64,000 nt of DNA. It comes from Betaproteobacteria bacterium (lineage in GTDB: Bacteria > Pseudomonadota > Gammaproteobacteria > Burkholderiales > SG8-39). The stretch lies in NCBI GenBank assembly GCA_005881575.1, contig VBCA01000003.1:1-64000 (forward strand), read 5' to 3'. Positions within the stretch are counted from its first letter, which is position 1; the number at the start of each line of letters is the position of its first letter. The notes under the pieces are model-generated. The model was not told the DNA's origin, made no database searches, and saw only the letters and a program-made list of their open reading frames with translations. Shown in pieces: positions 8,363 through 16,726 of the stretch. The position numbers were made by a program, and so were the translations under genes.

Positions 8363-8899
8363 CTAGAATAAGGGGCCACGCGGGAACGCGGTGCGAAATC
8401 GGTCTCTGGGATCGTAGGCGACGAAGTGGTAGCTGAAACCTCCTGCCCCGTCGAGAACGCGAGACTCGCGCGAGGCCTCGCGCCAGCGTAAGCGGTCGAA
8501 CTCCGGGAAGAAAGCGTCGCCCTCGAAATCGCGCTCGATCTCGGTCATATAGAGGCGGGAGGCGATCGGAATAGCGAGCGCGTAGATCTGCGCGCCCCCG
8601 ATGACGAATGCGTCCCGGGGCTCGACCACCGCCGCGAGAGCGGCATCGAGCGAACGCACTGCGCGGCAGCCCGAGCGCGTCCAATCGGGCGAGCGGGTGA
8701 TCACGATGTTGTCTCGTCCGGCAAGCGGCCCGCCGATCGATTCAAACGTTCGGCGACCCATGATCACTGCGTGACCAAGCGTAAGCTGCCTGAAACGCCT
8801 CAGGTCCTCCGGCAGGTGCCAGGGCATGCGGTTGCGGTGGCCGATGACGCCGTTGCTCGCCACGGCGGCGATGATGGCGACGCGCGAAAAGCCGGTCAT
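8363..8899 (-). CDS. folA: Dihydrofolate reductase
   Basis: IAAVASNGVIGHRNRMPWHLPEDLRRFRQLTLGHAVIMGRRTFESIG...FVIGGAQIYALA. Confidence 0.96.
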   Translation of the reverse strand: MTGFSRVAIIAAVASNGVIGHRNRMPWHLPEDLRRFRQLTLGHAVIMGRRTFESIGGPLAGRDNIVITRSPDWTRSGCRAVRSLDAALAAVVEPRDAFVIGGAQIYALAIPIASRLYMTEIERDFEGDAFFPEFDRLRWREASRESRVLDGAGGFSYHFVAYDPRDRFRTAFPRGPLF

Positions 8900-8962: not shown

Positions 8963-10429
8963 ATGAAAATCGGGCTCGACTTCCCCCAACGCTACTACCC
9001 GCGATCGTTTCTGAGCTTGCTGCTGCTCGCCTTCGCGCTCGTCGCGGCACCGCTCGTCGTGGCTTTTTACAACACTGCGGTATACGTCGAGCAGCTTGCA
9101 GGTCAGAGCCAGACCGCGGTTTCTCAGGCGGCGCAAGCCTCTCGCGGCAGCCGCCTCCTGGTCGAGCAAACCACGGCGCTCGAACGGGTCGTGCGCCAGT
9201 ATCTCATCCTCGACGACGAGGAGCTCCTCAAGGATTACGCCCGCTTGAGGGCGAACTTCAAGGCGAACACCAGCGAGCTTTCCCTGCAGCCGCTCGACGA
9301 GCCGCAGCTGCACGAGCTCAACAGCACTATCGACAAGGAGCAGGGGCTCTACGAACAGTTGCTCGGCAGGCCGAAGACGGCGGCCGACAAGAAGGCGCTC
9401 GTGGAGGGCTACTTGGTGCTGTCGGAGCTGGCGCGGGACGTGCTCAATACGAGCAACGCCTTGATCGACCGCGAGGTGGAATCCATGCGGCGCACGGGCG
9501 AGCGCGCGCAGCGCATCCTCTGGCTGCAGCTCGCCGCGACGATCCCGCTCGGGATACTCCTTGCGGTCGGAGTCACCCTTCTCATCGCGAGACCGATCCG
9601 TCAGCTCGACCAGGCGATCCGGCGCCTCGGTGCTGGCGAGTTCGAGGGCGACATCCGGGTCGGCGGGCCGGCGGACCTGAAATACCTGGGCAGCCGGCTC
9701 GATTGGCTGCGGCAACGGCTGATCGAACTCGAACAACAGAAGCGCCTGTTCCTGCGCCACGTCTCTCACGAGCTGAAAACGCCGCTGACGGCGCTTCGCG
9801 AAGGATCGGAGCTGCTGGTCGAGGGGACCGCCGGCCCGCTGTCGCCCGGCCAGCGCGAAATCGTCGAAATCCTCCGGCAAAAAAGCGTGCAATTGCAGCA
9901 GCTGATTGAGGGCCTCTTGAACTACCATCGAGCGCAGGAGAGCGTGGGGCGCCTGGAGGTGACGGCGGTGCGATTCGACCGGGTCGTAGAACAGGTGCTC
10001 GACGATCACCGGCTCGCGGTCCAGGCTCGCGGCATCCGCGCCGACCTGCGGCTGGACCCGGTCATACTTCAAGCCGACGAGGAAAAATTACGCGCCGTTG
10101 CGGCGAATCTGGTCTCCAATGCGATCAAATACTCGCCGGACGAGGGTATGATTTCCCTGGCGCTGCGAAGAGAGGGGGCTGAGGTGGTATTCGACGTGAG
10201 AGACGCGGGTCCGGGAATTCCTCCCGAGGATCGCGACCGGATTTTCGACTGGTTCTATCAGGGCGAGGACATCCACCACGGCCGCGTGCGGGGCAGCGGT
10301 TTGGGGCTCGCGATCGCACGGGAATTTGTGGTGGCTCACGACGGTCGCATCGAGGTTGTGAGCGATCGCGAAGGCGGCGCCCATTTCCGCGTCACGCTTG
10401 CGGCCGGAACGCCGCGTCCCGAGCTATGA
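8963..10429 (+). CDS. glrK: Sensor histidine kinase, GlrK/QseE family
   Basis: Two TM segments, HAMP, LRHVSHELKTPLTALREGSELL, HATPase; followed by lipoprotein and sigma-54 response regulator with overlapping starts/stops. Confidence 0.85.
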   Translation: MKIGLDFPQRYYPRSFLSLLLLAFALVAAPLVVAFYNTAVYVEQLAGQSQTAVSQAAQASRGSRLLVEQTTALERVVRQYLILDDEELLKDYARLRANFKANTSELSLQPLDEPQLHELNSTIDKEQGLYEQLLGRPKTAADKKALVEGYLVLSELARDVLNTSNALIDREVESMRRTGERAQRILWLQLAATIPLGILLAVGVTLLIARPIRQLDQAIRRLGAGEFEGDIRVGGPADLKYLGSRLDWLRQRLIELEQQKRLFLRHVSHELKTPLTALREGSELLVEGTAGPLSPGQREIVEILRQKSVQLQQLIEGLLNYHRAQESVGRLEVTAVRFDRVVEQVLDDHRLAVQARGIRADLRLDPVILQADEEKLRAVAANLVSNAIKYSPDEGMISLALRREGAEVVFDVRDAGPGIPPEDRDRIFDWFYQGEDIHHGRVRGSGLGLAIAREFVVAHDGRIEVVSDREGGAHFRVTLAAGTPRPEL

Positions 10430-10935
10430 TCCGGACCGTTGCAATCCTCTGCGGCATTTTGGCGCTTGCCGGGTGTGCCGCCTTATCCACTCCAGGTTCA
10501 GGTCCTGGAGGTTCGAGTGCCCCTTGGGTCCGCGACAACCGTGAATCGCGGCAGGTCATCGAGCTGATCGCTTACACCCAGAGAGTCGCGGCGCTCCAGG
10601 CGGATGAGCAGCAACGCGAATTGAACGCTTCGACCCAGATGCTCTCCAAGGATCGCGGCGCCTACGGACGGGTCCGGCTCGCGCTGCTGCTTGCGTTGCC
10701 TGGAACCGCGTTCAACGACGACACCCGGGCCGCGGGCCTGCTCGAGTCTCTCGCGGGCGCGGGAGCCTCCGAATCGCCGCCCGGCCCGATGCAGCAGTTT
10801 GCCGGACTGCTTTATGCCCAGATCAGCGAACGCTTGCGCGAGCAGCGCCGCACCGTCCAACTAAAGGAGCAGCTCGAGGCGCTGAAGGCGGTCGAGCGCA
10901 ATATCATAGAACGCGAGCAAGCGCGGCCAAGATGA
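10426..10935 (+). CDS. Lipoprotein of the QseG/YfhG position in the glrK-qseG-glrR cassette
   Basis: Lipobox LALAGCAAL; overlaps upstream and downstream genes by 4 nt. Confidence 0.7.
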   Translation: MIRTVAILCGILALAGCAALSTPGSGPGGSSAPWVRDNRESRQVIELIAYTQRVAALQADEQQRELNASTQMLSKDRGAYGRVRLALLLALPGTAFNDDTRAAGLLESLAGAGASESPPGPMQQFAGLLYAQISERLREQRRTVQLKEQLEALKAVERNIIEREQARPR

Positions 10936-12272
10936 GCACCATTCTCCTCGTCGACGACGATCCGGATATCCTGAAACTCATTTCCCTGCGACTTACCGCC
11001 GCCGGCCACAGCGTCAAGGGCGCGGACAGCGGGGAGAAGGCGCTCGCCGTCCTCGCGGCTTCGCGACCTGAGCTCGTCATTACCGACCTCAAGATGGGCG
11101 GAATGGACGGCTTGACCTTGTTTGACGAGATTCGCAAGCAGGCGCCGACCCTTCCGGTCATCATCCTCACCGCGCATGGGACGATCCCCGAGGCGGTCGC
11201 CGCGACCCGCCGCGGAGTTTTCGGGTTTCAGTCCAAGCCGTTCGACGGGAAGCACCTGCTCGACCAGGTGGAACAGGCCTTGCGCCTTTCCGGAGTCGCA
11301 CAGAGTGAAGGTGAGGAGGACTGGCGGCGCGATTTCGTGACGCAGAGCCCGAAAATGGAAAACGTGCTCCATCAGGCGCGCCTGGTTGCCCAGTCGGAGG
11401 TGAGCGTGTTCATCCAGGGCGCGAGCGGCACGGGAAAGGAGCTCCTCGCGCGCGCGATACACCGGGCGAGCCCTCGCTCGCAGGGACCCTTCGTGGCGGT
11501 CAATTGCGCGGCCATCCCGGAAAATCTGCTCGAATCGGAATTGTTCGGCCACCGCAAAGGCTCGTTTACCGGCGCGACCTACGACCACAAGGGCCTGGTC
11601 CCCGCCGCCGACGGAGGGACGCTGTTTTTGGATGAGATCGGCGATATGCCTCTTGCTTTGCAGGCCAAGCTCTTGCGCGTGCTGCAGGACCACGAAGTGC
11701 GTGCGGTCGGTGCGACGCAGGGAACGCAAGTCGACGTGCGCGTCATCTCCGCCACTCACCGCGACCTCGACGCGCAGATGAAAGCGGGGCGGTTCCGCGA
11801 GGATCTCTACTATCGACTGAACGTGGTCTCGCTCGCCCTCCCGCCCCTCTCCGAGCGGCGCGAAGACATCGTCCCTCTGGCGACCCATTACCTCAGAGTC
11901 ACCGCCGTGCGTTACGGAAAGGACGTGCAGGCAGTGGCTCCGGAGGGGCTTCAAACGCTACTTGCGGCACCTTGGCCGGGCAACGTGCGGCAGCTCGTCA
12001 ACGTGATCGAACAGGCGGTCGCGCTCTGCCCTTCGGGCGTCGTGCCGGCCTCGCTCATCCAGCAAGCATTGAAGGAGGAGCCCGCGCAGCTTGCGTCGCT
12101 CGAGGAAGCGCGGGGAGCCTTCGAGCGCGAATACCTGGTCCGGATCCTGCGCATCACCGGCGGCAGCGTGACCCGGGCGGCGAAGCTCGCGCAGCGCAAT
12201 CGCACCGAGTTCTACAAGCTGCTCGAGCGCCACAAGCTCGAGCCGAAGATGTTCAAGCCCGAAAAGGGCTGA
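10932..12272 (+). CDS. glrR: Sigma-54-dependent response regulator, GlrR/QseF family
   Basis: REC ([14 protein letters not shown]), AAA+ EBP motifs [14 protein letters not shown] and GSFTGAT (GAFTGA-like), C-terminal HTH ([24 protein letters not shown]). Confidence 0.92.
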
Positions 12273-12309
12273 AACCCGGGCGATCCGCGCGCGCGGAAAT
12301 TCGTCGCGT

Positions 12310-12327
12310 TGTCGCTCCGGGGCGACA
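12310..12327. promoter_or_regulatory. Putative GlrR operator TGTC-N10-GACA (core GTCG-N8-CGAC), copy 1
   Basis: TGTCGCTCCGGGGCGACA immediately downstream of glrR and 129 bp upstream of the -24/-12 promoter. Confidence 0.6.
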
Positions 12328-12373
12328 ACAAATTCCCTTTCCCATCAGTTCGATTTTTGCCGCTTGCGGGAAA

Positions 12374-12393
12374 GCGTCGTTGACAAGCGACGC
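12374..12393. promoter_or_regulatory. Putative GlrR operator, copy 2 (GCGTCG-N8-CGACGC)
   Basis: GCGTCGTTGACAAGCGACGC inverted repeat sharing the core GTCG-N8-CGAC with copy 1; cores 65 bp apart. Confidence 0.5.
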
Positions 12394-12455
12394 ATCGAAA
12401 ATATTCAGCATTCGGGATTTGGGATAACTCGTTGAGATAGCGCAAAAACTTATGC

Positions 12456-12471
12456 TGGCACGGGGATTGCA
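12456..12471 (+). promoter_or_regulatory. Sigma-54 (RpoN) -24/-12 promoter
   Basis: TGGCACGGGGATTGCA matches consensus TGGCACG-N4-TTGCW with correct spacing. Confidence 0.85.
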
Positions 12472-12553
12472 CTCATGCTCACAACTCCAACGCGATCCTC
12501 AAGCGGTGGGAGAAACAAATTTGCTAAAGCGAGAGCGCTCCAATCACGGATAA

Positions 12554-13033
12554 ATGCGGATCGATACTCTCTTCGCGGGACGGGCGGTTCCGGTGCTGAT
12601 TGCGGGTCTGATCGGCGTCGCAGCCGTCACGAGCTGGTTGCACAGCGGGCTCTCACCGAAGCAGGGCGACTCGCGGGCCGCAGACACCGGACGCAAGCCC
12701 GTCCCGGCGAATAGCTGCGCTCTGTGCGGTACGGTCGAGTCCATCCGGATCGTCGAGGTGCGCGATGAAGCGGGCGGCGCCGGAGCGACGGCAGGCGGGC
12801 CGGGCGCCGGCGAGCAGACGGTCGGGGGAGGTGGCACTGCGGTCACGCTCCTTGGGGCCGGAGGCGCGATCGCCGGCAGCGAGATCGAAAAGAACACGAA
12901 GAAGCGCTATGCATATCGAGTGACGGTGCGCATGGACGACGGCTCCTTTCGCACCATTTCTTTGTCGAGCCCGCCCACACTCGCGGTAGGCGATCAGGTG
13001 CGAGTGGTGGAAGGCAAGCTCGTGCGCACGTGA
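12554..13033 (+). CDS. Glycine-zipper (SlyB/PcpY-like) outer-membrane/envelope protein
   Basis: N-terminal signal anchor; CALCGTVESIRIVEVRDE; Gly-rich zipper GAGEQTVGGGGTAVTLLGAGGAIAGSEIEKNTKKRYAYRVTVRMDDG. Confidence 0.75.
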   Translation: MRIDTLFAGRAVPVLIAGLIGVAAVTSWLHSGLSPKQGDSRAADTGRKPVPANSCALCGTVESIRIVEVRDEAGGAGATAGGPGAGEQTVGGGGTAVTLLGAGGAIAGSEIEKNTKKRYAYRVTVRMDDGSFRTISLSSPPTLAVGDQVRVVEGKLVRT

Positions 13034-13082: not shown

Positions 13083-13490
13083 ATGCCAAGCCCGACCCGG
13101 ACCGTCGCACGCGTTCTTGTCGTCAGCCTGTGCGCGCTGGGTCTGCCGATGCCAGCCGTGCATGCGGAGCTGGTCGCAACCGATCGAGTCGAAGCCACCC
13201 GCCAGGGCGGGTCTTCGGAGCGCGAGTTTCTGGGTTCGCTTTTTGACCGTGCCGATGTCCGGAGCGCGCTTGAGCGGCAGGGCGTGAGCGCCGACGAAGC
13301 GAAAGCCCGTGTCAACGCCATGAGCGATGACGAAGTCGCGCAGCTCGCCGCGCGGTTCAACTCGTTTCCCGCGGCAGGCAGCGGGTTCGAGAGCACGCTT
13401 TGGGTTGGGCTTCTGGTGTTCGTGATCCTTCTCGTAACGGATATTCTGGGCTTCACCAAGGTTTTCAGCTTCACCCGGCCGGCCAAGTGA
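13083..13490 (+). CDS. PA2779-family small membrane protein
   Basis: Signal peptide, RSALERQGVSADEAKARVNAMSDDEVAQLAARF, C-terminal TM; adjacent to a C39-like peptidase as in the PA2778/PA2779 pair. Confidence 0.75.
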   Translation: MPSPTRTVARVLVVSLCALGLPMPAVHAELVATDRVEATRQGGSSEREFLGSLFDRADVRSALERQGVSADEAKARVNAMSDDEVAQLAARFNSFPAAGSGFESTLWVGLLVFVILLVTDILGFTKVFSFTRPAK

Positions 13491-14476
13491 TCCTCCCCTC
13501 TCGACCGCGCCGGCGTGTCGCCCGCCGCCTTACGGCGGCGGGCATCTTTCTTCTCGGGCTTGCGGGCTGCGCCACGCTGCAGCTGCAGGCCCTGGTGGGG
13601 AGCCGTTCCGCCGGGATTCCGCAGCGCGCGGAGCTCGAAGCGGTCCCGTTCTTTCCGCAGGAGAACTATCAATGCGGTCCGGCCGCTCTTGCGATGGTGC
13701 TCAGCGCCGGAGGCAAGGCGATCGAGCCGGAGGTGCTGCGGCCGCAGGTCTATCTCCCTGATCGGCACGGGAGCCTGCAAATCGAGATGCTCGCGGCGGC
13801 GCGTCGCAACGGGTTTGTCGCGATCGAGCTCGCTCCGAGCCTCCCGGGTCTCCTGGCTGAGATCGCCGCAGGAAACCCGGTGGTCGTGCTGCAGAACCTC
13901 GCCCTGGACTGGTATCCGGCTTGGCATTACGCCGTGGCGATCGGCTACGACCTCAAGGCCCGGCGCATCACTCTGCGCTCGGGCACGGAGCGGCGCCTCC
14001 AGATGCCGCTCGATACCTTCGAGCATACTTGGCGGCGCAGCGGCTACTGGGCGATGCTCGCGCTGCCGCCGCGGCGCTTGCCGGCGAGCGTGGCCGCAGG
14101 CGACTATCTGAGCGCAGTGGCGCGGCTCGAAAAGACCGGCCGGGCCACGTCGGCGCGGGAAGCCTACGAAAGCGCGCTCGAGCGCTGGCCCGACGATCTC
14201 ACCGCGCTCATAGGGCTGGGAAATACGGCCCATCGCGACGGCGATCTGGAAGCGGCGGAGCAGGTGTTCCGGCGGGCCATTCTCGCTCATCCGCAGTCGG
14301 CCGCCGCGCACAACAATCTGGCCCAAACGCTCGAGGAACTCGATCGCCATGATGAGGCCTTGGCCGAAGCGCGCGAGGCGGTCGGGCTCGGCGGGCCGCT
14401 CGAGGACGTCTCGATGCGCACGCTGGACGCCATCGTCTCGCACGCCGGCCGGGGCGAGCAGGAATGGAACCAGTGA
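13487..14476 (+). CDS. PA2778-family C39-like cysteine peptidase lipoprotein with TPR repeats
   Basis: GTG start overlapping previous stop; lipobox LGLAGCATL; VPFFPQENYQCGPAALAMVL (C39-like Cys motif); WHYAVAIGYD (His); TPR-like C terminus. Confidence 0.82.
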   Translation: MILPSRPRRRVARRLTAAGIFLLGLAGCATLQLQALVGSRSAGIPQRAELEAVPFFPQENYQCGPAALAMVLSAGGKAIEPEVLRPQVYLPDRHGSLQIEMLAAARRNGFVAIELAPSLPGLLAEIAAGNPVVVLQNLALDWYPAWHYAVAIGYDLKARRITLRSGTERRLQMPLDTFEHTWRRSGYWAMLALPPRRLPASVAAGDYLSAVARLEKTGRATSAREAYESALERWPDDLTALIGLGNTAHRDGDLEAAEQVFRRAILAHPQSAAAHNNLAQTLEELDRHDEALAEAREAVGLGGPLEDVSMRTLDAIVSHAGRGEQEWNQ

Positions 14477-14500: not shown

Positions 14501-15508
14501 ATGCGAACCTTCATGGCCATGCATCGTGGGGCGCCCACGCACAGCCTCTGGAGCGGGCTGCGGCATTTCCTTTCGCACGGGGTCATTACCTTGCTCGCGG
14601 TCGCCATCGCGTTCTCCCTCCCCGGGATGGCGAATTACATCCTGAACGAATGGTGGCCGCACGTCGAGCGCAATCCCAATCTCCTGCTCGCGACTGAAAT
14701 CGCCCTGGCATCGGTCCTCGCGCTGCTGTTCAATCTGGCCAAGATCGCCTGGGATCATCGCCAGGGCGTCCACATCGCGCGGCTCGCGTCCCTGATGTAT
14801 GCGCGCAACGCCGGAGCGGGCTGGTGGTCGCGGCGGCGGGAACGAGCCTTGGTGAGGCAGCTGCCGGCCGCGCGCGACGCTTTCGTCCTGACCCTCACCG
14901 GACACGACACCTTCGTTGCCGACGACAGTCTGCTGCGAGGTGTAATCGAGAAGGCCTACGAAATCCGCGTGATGCTGGTCAACCCGGTTGGGAAGGCGCT
15001 GCGCGAGCGGGCGGATTCCTTGCCCCCGGACATCACGGTGCTCACCTTGCACACCGAGATCGAGGCGACAATCGGGTATCTCTCAGGGATGCGCAAGTAC
15101 GGCAAGATGGTGAAGCTCAAGTTCTACGACGAGGAGCCGTTCTGGAAGCTCATCGCCATCGGCGACTACATCTGGGTGCAGCATTGCCACAGCGGATTCG
15201 CGGTCAAGCAGCAGCCCGAATTCGTGTTCGGCCTGCAGCACCGCGAGCCACGCCACGGCCTCTTCGTGCCCTTTTACATGGTGTTCCTCAACCAGTGGAA
15301 TGATGCGCGTCATCCCGAGTACGATTTCGACACGAACGAGCTGGTCTACCGCGACGCTTCTGGAAAGGAAACCGGGCGGGCCGTTCTGGGCGTTCCGATC
15401 AACGGCGCCGCCACGCCGCTGCCTTCGTCTCGGGGACTCCGCGCAGCCCTTGACTCCGGTGCGGCACTGCTGCGCCGCCTGGCACCCGAGCGCACGGCCG
15501 GACTCTAG
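14501..15508 (+). CDS. Uncharacterised membrane-anchored protein (two N-terminal TM segments, cytosolic alpha/beta domain)
   Basis: 335-aa uninterrupted ORF with hydrophobic segments [21 protein letters not shown] and [20 protein letters not shown]; no recognised catalytic motif. Confidence 0.75.
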
Positions 15509-16299
15509 ACTGCGATCGGGGCCTTGATCGCGGGGTGCGGATCGTACGCCTCGAGGGTGAAATCCTCGTAGCGGAAACCGAAAACATCCCGTATCGCCGG
15601 GTTGAGCCGCATGCGCGGCAGCGGCCGCGGCGAGCGCGCGAGCTGCGCTCTCGCCTGCTCCAGGTGGTTGAGGTAAAGGTGCGCATCGCCGAAGGTATGC
15701 ACGAATTCGCCGGGCTTGAGGCCACATACCTGCGACACCATCAGCGTGAGCAGCGCATACGAGGCGATGTTGAACGGCACGCCGAGGAAAATGTCGGCGC
15801 TGCGCTGGTACATCTGGCAGGAAAGGCGTCCGTCCGCCACGTAGAACTGAAACAGGACGTGGCACGGAGGCAGTTTCATCTTGTCGATCTCGGCGGGATT
15901 CCAGGCCGTCACGATGTGGCGGCGCGAATCCGGCCGCGTCCTGATCGAATTGACGACCTGCGCGATTTGGTCGATCGCGCCGCCTTCAGGTGAGGGCCAG
16001 CTGCGCCATTGCGAGCCGTACACCGGCCCGAGATCGCCGTTCGCGTCGGCCCACTCGTCCCAGATGGTGACGCCGCGCTCCTGCAGCCAGCGGACGTTGG
16101 TCTCGCCTCTCAAGAACCAGAGCAGCTCGTAGATGATCGACTTGAGATGGACTTTCTTGGTGGTCAGCAGCGGGAAGCCGGCTGCCAGGTCGAATCGCAT
16201 CTGCCAGCCGAAGGTGGACAGCGTGCCGGTGCCCGTGCGGTCGGTCTTCCTGTGACCGTGCTCGAGCACGTGGCGCATGAGTTCGAGGTATTGCTTCAT
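15505..16299 (-). CDS. thyA: Thymidylate synthase
   Basis: [38 protein letters not shown]...[42 protein letters not shown]; 264 aa. Confidence 0.97.
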
Positions 16300-16327
16300 C
16301 GAGGTGCGTTCGGATGCATATTCGAAA

Positions 16328-16726
16328 TCATAACGCGTTATCCGAGGGTGTTGAACGCGCTCGCGGCGGGATCGCGCGCCAGGCCCACACCACCGCCAGG
16401 GCAAACGCACAATAGGCGATCGCGAACACCCACTCGGGAAGATTGTAGTAGAGGAGCCATGCCAGCCAGCGGCCGATAAAGCTGCGCTCCTCGCGCCCGG
16501 TGGAGCGCAACACGTCCTCCCAAAGGGTGAGCGGACAGGTGAAGCCCAGCAGGGTCTCGATGGCGACAAACACGATCGCGGCGAGGTGCGCGATGCGAAA
16601 CGCGCGGTTGTGCACCCAGCCCCATCGCCCGGCGCCGGCGAGGATCAGCGCGAAGCCGCCGACCACGAACAACACGAAAAGGACATGCACGAAGAGAACC
16701 GCATCGGCGAGCCATTTCGAGCCCAT
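16328..16726 (-). CDS. DUF2784 family membrane protein
   Basis: [31 protein letters not shown]...[11 protein letters not shown]...YYNLPEWVF. Confidence 0.75.

Follow-up and report, generated by a model that had tools for sequence, protein, structure and literature searches.

Published work on the GlrKR (QseEF) two-component system, in the literature that we found, concerns enterobacteria and proceeds mainly via GlmY and rpoE, the sRNA GlmY being the best known output of enterobacterial GlrR (PMC6075780). At glmY, TGTCN10GACA sites and two IHF sites have been described (PMC8745638), the published number of QseF sites being three (PMC8745638; PMC6075780). On the E. coli K-12 glmY promoter, TGTCGCTTTCTGGCGACA and TGTCTCTTTTTAGCGACA lie 63 bp apart, and IHF-like sites match at 9/9 positions between the operators and at 8/9 before the promoter. 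GlrR/QseF also controls the sigma-54 promoter of rpoE, a gene for an envelope-homeostasis protein (PMC6075780). A study of qseEGF in Pseudomonadota reports a kinase–lipoprotein–regulator gene order and two conserved kinase arginines that bind QseG and, in the part of the text available, names no targets in Betaproteobacteria (PMC12691602). Likewise, no description of GlrR targets in Betaproteobacteria was found in the literature searched, which lay mostly outside subscription journals.

We analyzed a 64,000-nucleotide stretch of a Betaproteobacteria genome (hereafter the window), which carries a three-gene block in the qseEGF order on the plus strand. The glrK/qseE-type sensor histidine kinase gene (8963–10429; HAMP, HisKA and HATPase domains) encodes a protein that shares 32% identity with E. 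coli GlrK across 481 aa and conserves both arginines reported to contact QseG, R70 and R73, within the motif ERxxRQYxxLDD. The gene in the qseG position (10426–10935), between glrK and glrR, encodes a 169-aa lipoprotein with a lipobox, from a family conserved across the order; the stretch it shares with E. coli QseG is limited to a C-terminal KLExLxxIER, within a weak 38-residue match (probability 6%, E 0.006). The glrR/qseF-type sigma-54 response regulator gene (10932–12272) encodes a REC domain, a sigma-54 AAA+ domain and a Fis-type HTH. Among NCBIfam models this regulator fits GlrR best, although its 607 bits fall short of the equivalog threshold (763). Its identity to E. coli GlrR is 57.6%, and complete over a 10-residue HTH segment, and the order glrK–lipoprotein–glrR, by which GlrR/QseF members are recognized, is present. 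The sigma-54 gene rpoN occurs in one copy in the genome. Read by eye, the block and the genes behind it are flanked by two minus-strand genes, a dihydrofolate reductase-like one (8363–8899) and a thymidylate synthase-like one (15505–16569); a thymidylate synthase-like frame also lies downstream of glrR at one other locus (L060).

The gap between glrR and the first downstream gene, 281 bp long, holds two predicted GlrR operators followed by a predicted sigma-54 promoter. Operator 1 (GTCGCTCCGGGGCGAC, 12311–12326) lies within TTGTCG-N8-CGACAA (12309–12328), and operator 2 (GTCGTTGACAAGCGAC, 12376–12391) within GCGTCG-N8-CGACGC (12374–12393), 65 bp away from start to start and unchanged in congeners. 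The −24/−12 promoter (TGGCACGGGGATTGCA, 12456–12471, plus strand) starts 184 bp past the end of glrR, matches the consensus at 11/11 positions and is the sole match of at least 10/11 on either strand of the window. IHF-like sites are found in both gaps on the minus strand, a weak one between the operators (12343–12355, 7/9) and another between operator 2 and the promoter (12425–12437, 8/9). A preliminary description of this DNA had reported a near-perfect sigma-54 promoter after glrR and two GTCG-N8-CGAC sites 65 bp apart, and both the promoter and the coordinates of the sites proved right. It had also given TGTC-N10-GACA as the enterobacterial site format; operator 1 matches this exactly, in agreement with the E. 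coli glmY sites and the published motif (PMC8745638), and operator 2 reads CGTC-N10-GACG. From promoter geometry alone, transcription would start near 12482.

The arrangement thus resembles that of E. coli glmY, with its TGTCGC-N6-GCGACA-type pair, IHF-like sites in both gaps and −24/−12 promoter. It differs in that glmY is located upstream of glrK, carries three sites and yields an sRNA, whereas the window has two sites downstream of glrR and before a probable operon of four protein-coding genes. E. coli rpoE, an envelope gene under GlrR/QseF control as predicted for the window genes, is another target at another location.

The two operators are of unequal quality. With a weight matrix built from the sites of other genomes, the window being left out, position 12310 obtains the top score of the window (20.8 bits, the next being 11.6), whereas operator 2 scores only 6.3 bits and is credible mainly because of its spacing and conservation. 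Perfect TTGTCG-N8-CGACAA occurs once in the 3.8-Mb genome, at the window site, while matches with up to two mismatches are at chance level (209 versus 238 for the reversed control). It could therefore be argued from the abundance of single degenerate operators and the weakness of operator 2 that chance palindromes stand here beside a chance −24/−12 match. Since degenerate single operators are common by chance, the informative test is the paired pattern (GTCG-N8-MGAC, 45–54 bp, GTCK-N8-MGAC), which gives four matches in the genome versus none for the reversed-pattern control: the window pair (C51:12311) and those at C15:18936, C53:23316 and C82:11917. All four are followed, 81–83 bp on, by a sigma-54 promoter matching at 9–11 of 11 positions. 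Counterparts of all four are present in one congener; two others, with less complete genomes, each have counterparts of three. With these pairs and the helical phasing described below, a chance origin appears extremely improbable.

Unlinked pairs precede genes of several kinds. The C82 pair lies before a bactofilin gene (PF04519, 60 bits), the C15 pair before a gene for a secreted protein of 113 aa and one for an FN3 protein, and the C53 pair before a gene for a short basic protein; bactofilin-like genes also stand behind such promoters in two more genomes, from another family. A promoter of at least 8/11 at 60–130 bp was present at 25 of the 34 pair loci that we inspected, those at 8/11 being weak. 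At one locus (L348), the pair is flanked by sigma-54 matches on both sides, 9/11 each at 71 and 93 bp, which suggests a divergent GlrR-controlled region.

We compared 162 distinct glrR-downstream regions, which are related in sequence and in which site choice was optimized per region: in 86 of them a promoter is accompanied by two sites, in 28 by a single site and in 12 by none, and for the remaining 36 no promoter was found in the scanned stretch. The operator spacing is 63–68 bp in 81 of the 86 two-site regions. The distances from operator 2 to the promoter cluster by helical turns, near 70, 82, 93, 103 and 112 bp (R = 0.59, a value reached by none of 5000 uniform draws). IHF-like sites of at least 8/9 occur in the inter-operator gap of 46/81 regions (shuffles: mean 4, maximum 9) and in the promoter-proximal gap of 51/81 (mean 7, maximum 15). 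Both operators and the promoter are kept in the congeners with a complete region. Far from being peculiar to the window locus, the cassette stands behind glrR at most of the Burkholderiales glrR loci sampled. It is also present at some Desulfobulbaceae and Nitrospirota glrR loci, and absent downstream of glrR in Halomonas, Kushneria, Arsenophonus and other Gammaproteobacteria (L084–L106, L112). At two loci (L182, L183) the operators are 96–97 bp apart instead of ~66, an excess of about three helical turns, and the promoter distance is the usual 81 bp. Several genomes have two GlrR-like genes, and in one of them (G364) the second copy is also followed by the cassette.

The pairs track the presence of GlrR. 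In a sample of the order, they are found in 28/44 genomes with GlrR versus 7/56 without (Fisher P = 9.5e-8, shared ancestry uncorrected), and two or more pairs occur only with GlrR (14 versus 0, P = 2.6e-6, shared ancestry uncorrected). In a sample of the family, the figures are 23/30 versus 5/31 (P = 1.9e-6, shared ancestry uncorrected), with three GlrR-negative drafts, whose assemblies are possibly incomplete, carrying two pairs; in some genomes that have GlrR no pair was found. The BiofilmReg system of Burkholderia contaminans, considered as a possible GlrR system, was rejected, its regulator being of the CreB type.

As the genome encodes several further sigma-54 activators, another enhancer-binding protein (PrsR-, PilR- or AtoC-like) might own the paired sites, the adjacency of glrR being incidental. 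The PrsK/PrsR-RpoN system of PEP-CTERM genes comes to mind, as there too an NtrC-type regulator acts on surface-protein genes through sigma-54 promoters. However, none of the six activators examined besides GlrR passes the PrsR cut-off (TIGR02915, 502.6; they score at most 361, and GlrR 372), no PrsR-type regulator of the genome exceeds it, and PrsR was rejected as the binder. The HTH ends of the other activators examined differ from that of GlrR, and the paired sites match E. coli GlrR sites, follow glrR in scores of genomes and track its presence. Ownership by another activator is thus highly unlikely, and the comparative evidence (86/162 regions, co-occurrence and phasing) supports the assignment to GlrR and sigma-54 made in the preliminary description. 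Overall, the region is very probably a GlrR/sigma-54-dependent enhancer–promoter of the genes that follow it.

These are four plus-strand genes with short or no intergenic gaps. The first (12554–13033) encodes a glycine-rich membrane protein of 159 aa with a CxxCG motif, without a match in Pfam or NCBIfam. It is followed by genes for a PA2779-family membrane protein (13083–13490; NF033919, 108 bits; PF20332) and for a PA2778-family C39-like cysteine peptidase lipoprotein with TPRs (13487–14476; NF033920, 336 bits), whose GTG start overlaps the PA2779 stop. The fourth gene of the probable operon (14501–15508) encodes a 335-aa protein, also without a match in Pfam or NCBIfam, which congeners and further members of the family retain. 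This protein recurs near glrR at seven other loci, often with PA2779 and CxxCG genes.

Given that the best known enterobacterial output is GlmY, the main product of the promoter might instead be a regulatory RNA analogous to GlmY, made from the leader (12482–12553). We found no Rfam match and no plus-strand terminator in this leader, the Rfam search of the locus giving one chance match only, below the gathering threshold, and no GlmY in the genome. Moreover, the ORF that begins ~72 nt past the predicted start belongs to a family found repeatedly behind the cassette. We consider an RNA output to be a poor candidate, with a very low probability, and the prediction of a protein-coding target, not an sRNA, is supported by the leader and by the recurrent first-gene family. 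Mechanical single-linkage clustering of the first ORFs, with families named by eye and some picks certainly in wrong frames, places the CxxCG membrane family behind the cassette in 35/139 cases (window included) and BON/EF-hand proteins in 34/139. PA2779 and C39 genes recur beside glrR only sporadically (three loci); of the envelope-protein/peptidase target proposed earlier, the protein-coding nature is supported, and CxxCG or BON/EF-hand first genes are commoner than the PA2779/C39 link. PA2779 by itself was rejected as a GlrR marker, as sigma-54 promoter matches at 30 PA2779 loci were few and mostly weak.

In the mechanism that we propose, GlrK, tuned by the neighboring lipoprotein, would phosphorylate GlrR, which would bind the two palindromes 65 bp apart; IHF would bend the DNA in both gaps, and the GlrR AAA+ assembly would then contact RNA polymerase–sigma-54 at 12456–12471. 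The transcript from ~12482 would span the CxxCG membrane protein, PA2779, C39 peptidase and ORF4 genes. GlrR would also drive at least three unlinked promoters, those before the bactofilin gene, the genes for the small secreted protein and the FN3 protein, and the gene for the small basic protein. The preliminary description had suggested a rewired GlrKR regulon. The predicted output indeed differs from GlmY, but it is not specific to this locus, with at least four such promoters in the genome; the promoter apparently belongs to a widespread and apparently undescribed envelope regulon, in which this stress-type regulator would control genes for surface proteins and for the cell skeleton. Any rewiring may have run the other way, the envelope arrangement being the older one and the enterobacterial glmY output the derived state. 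The broadest reading, for which we see the chances as evenly balanced, is an order-wide GlrR regulon built on a single invariant enhancer cassette (two operators with IHF sites and a helically phased sigma-54 promoter) that serves exchangeable envelope cargo as well as unlinked genes such as bactofilin, the enterobacterial sRNA output being a derived special case.

These results provide a testable Burkholderiales regulon for GlrKR, made up of four promoters in this genome together with dozens from related genomes, those of bactofilin and BON/EF-hand genes among them, and give a regulatory context to the uncharacterized PA2779, PA2778 and CxxCG membrane protein families. The general role of the system would then be tied to envelope maintenance, and not to amino-sugar control.
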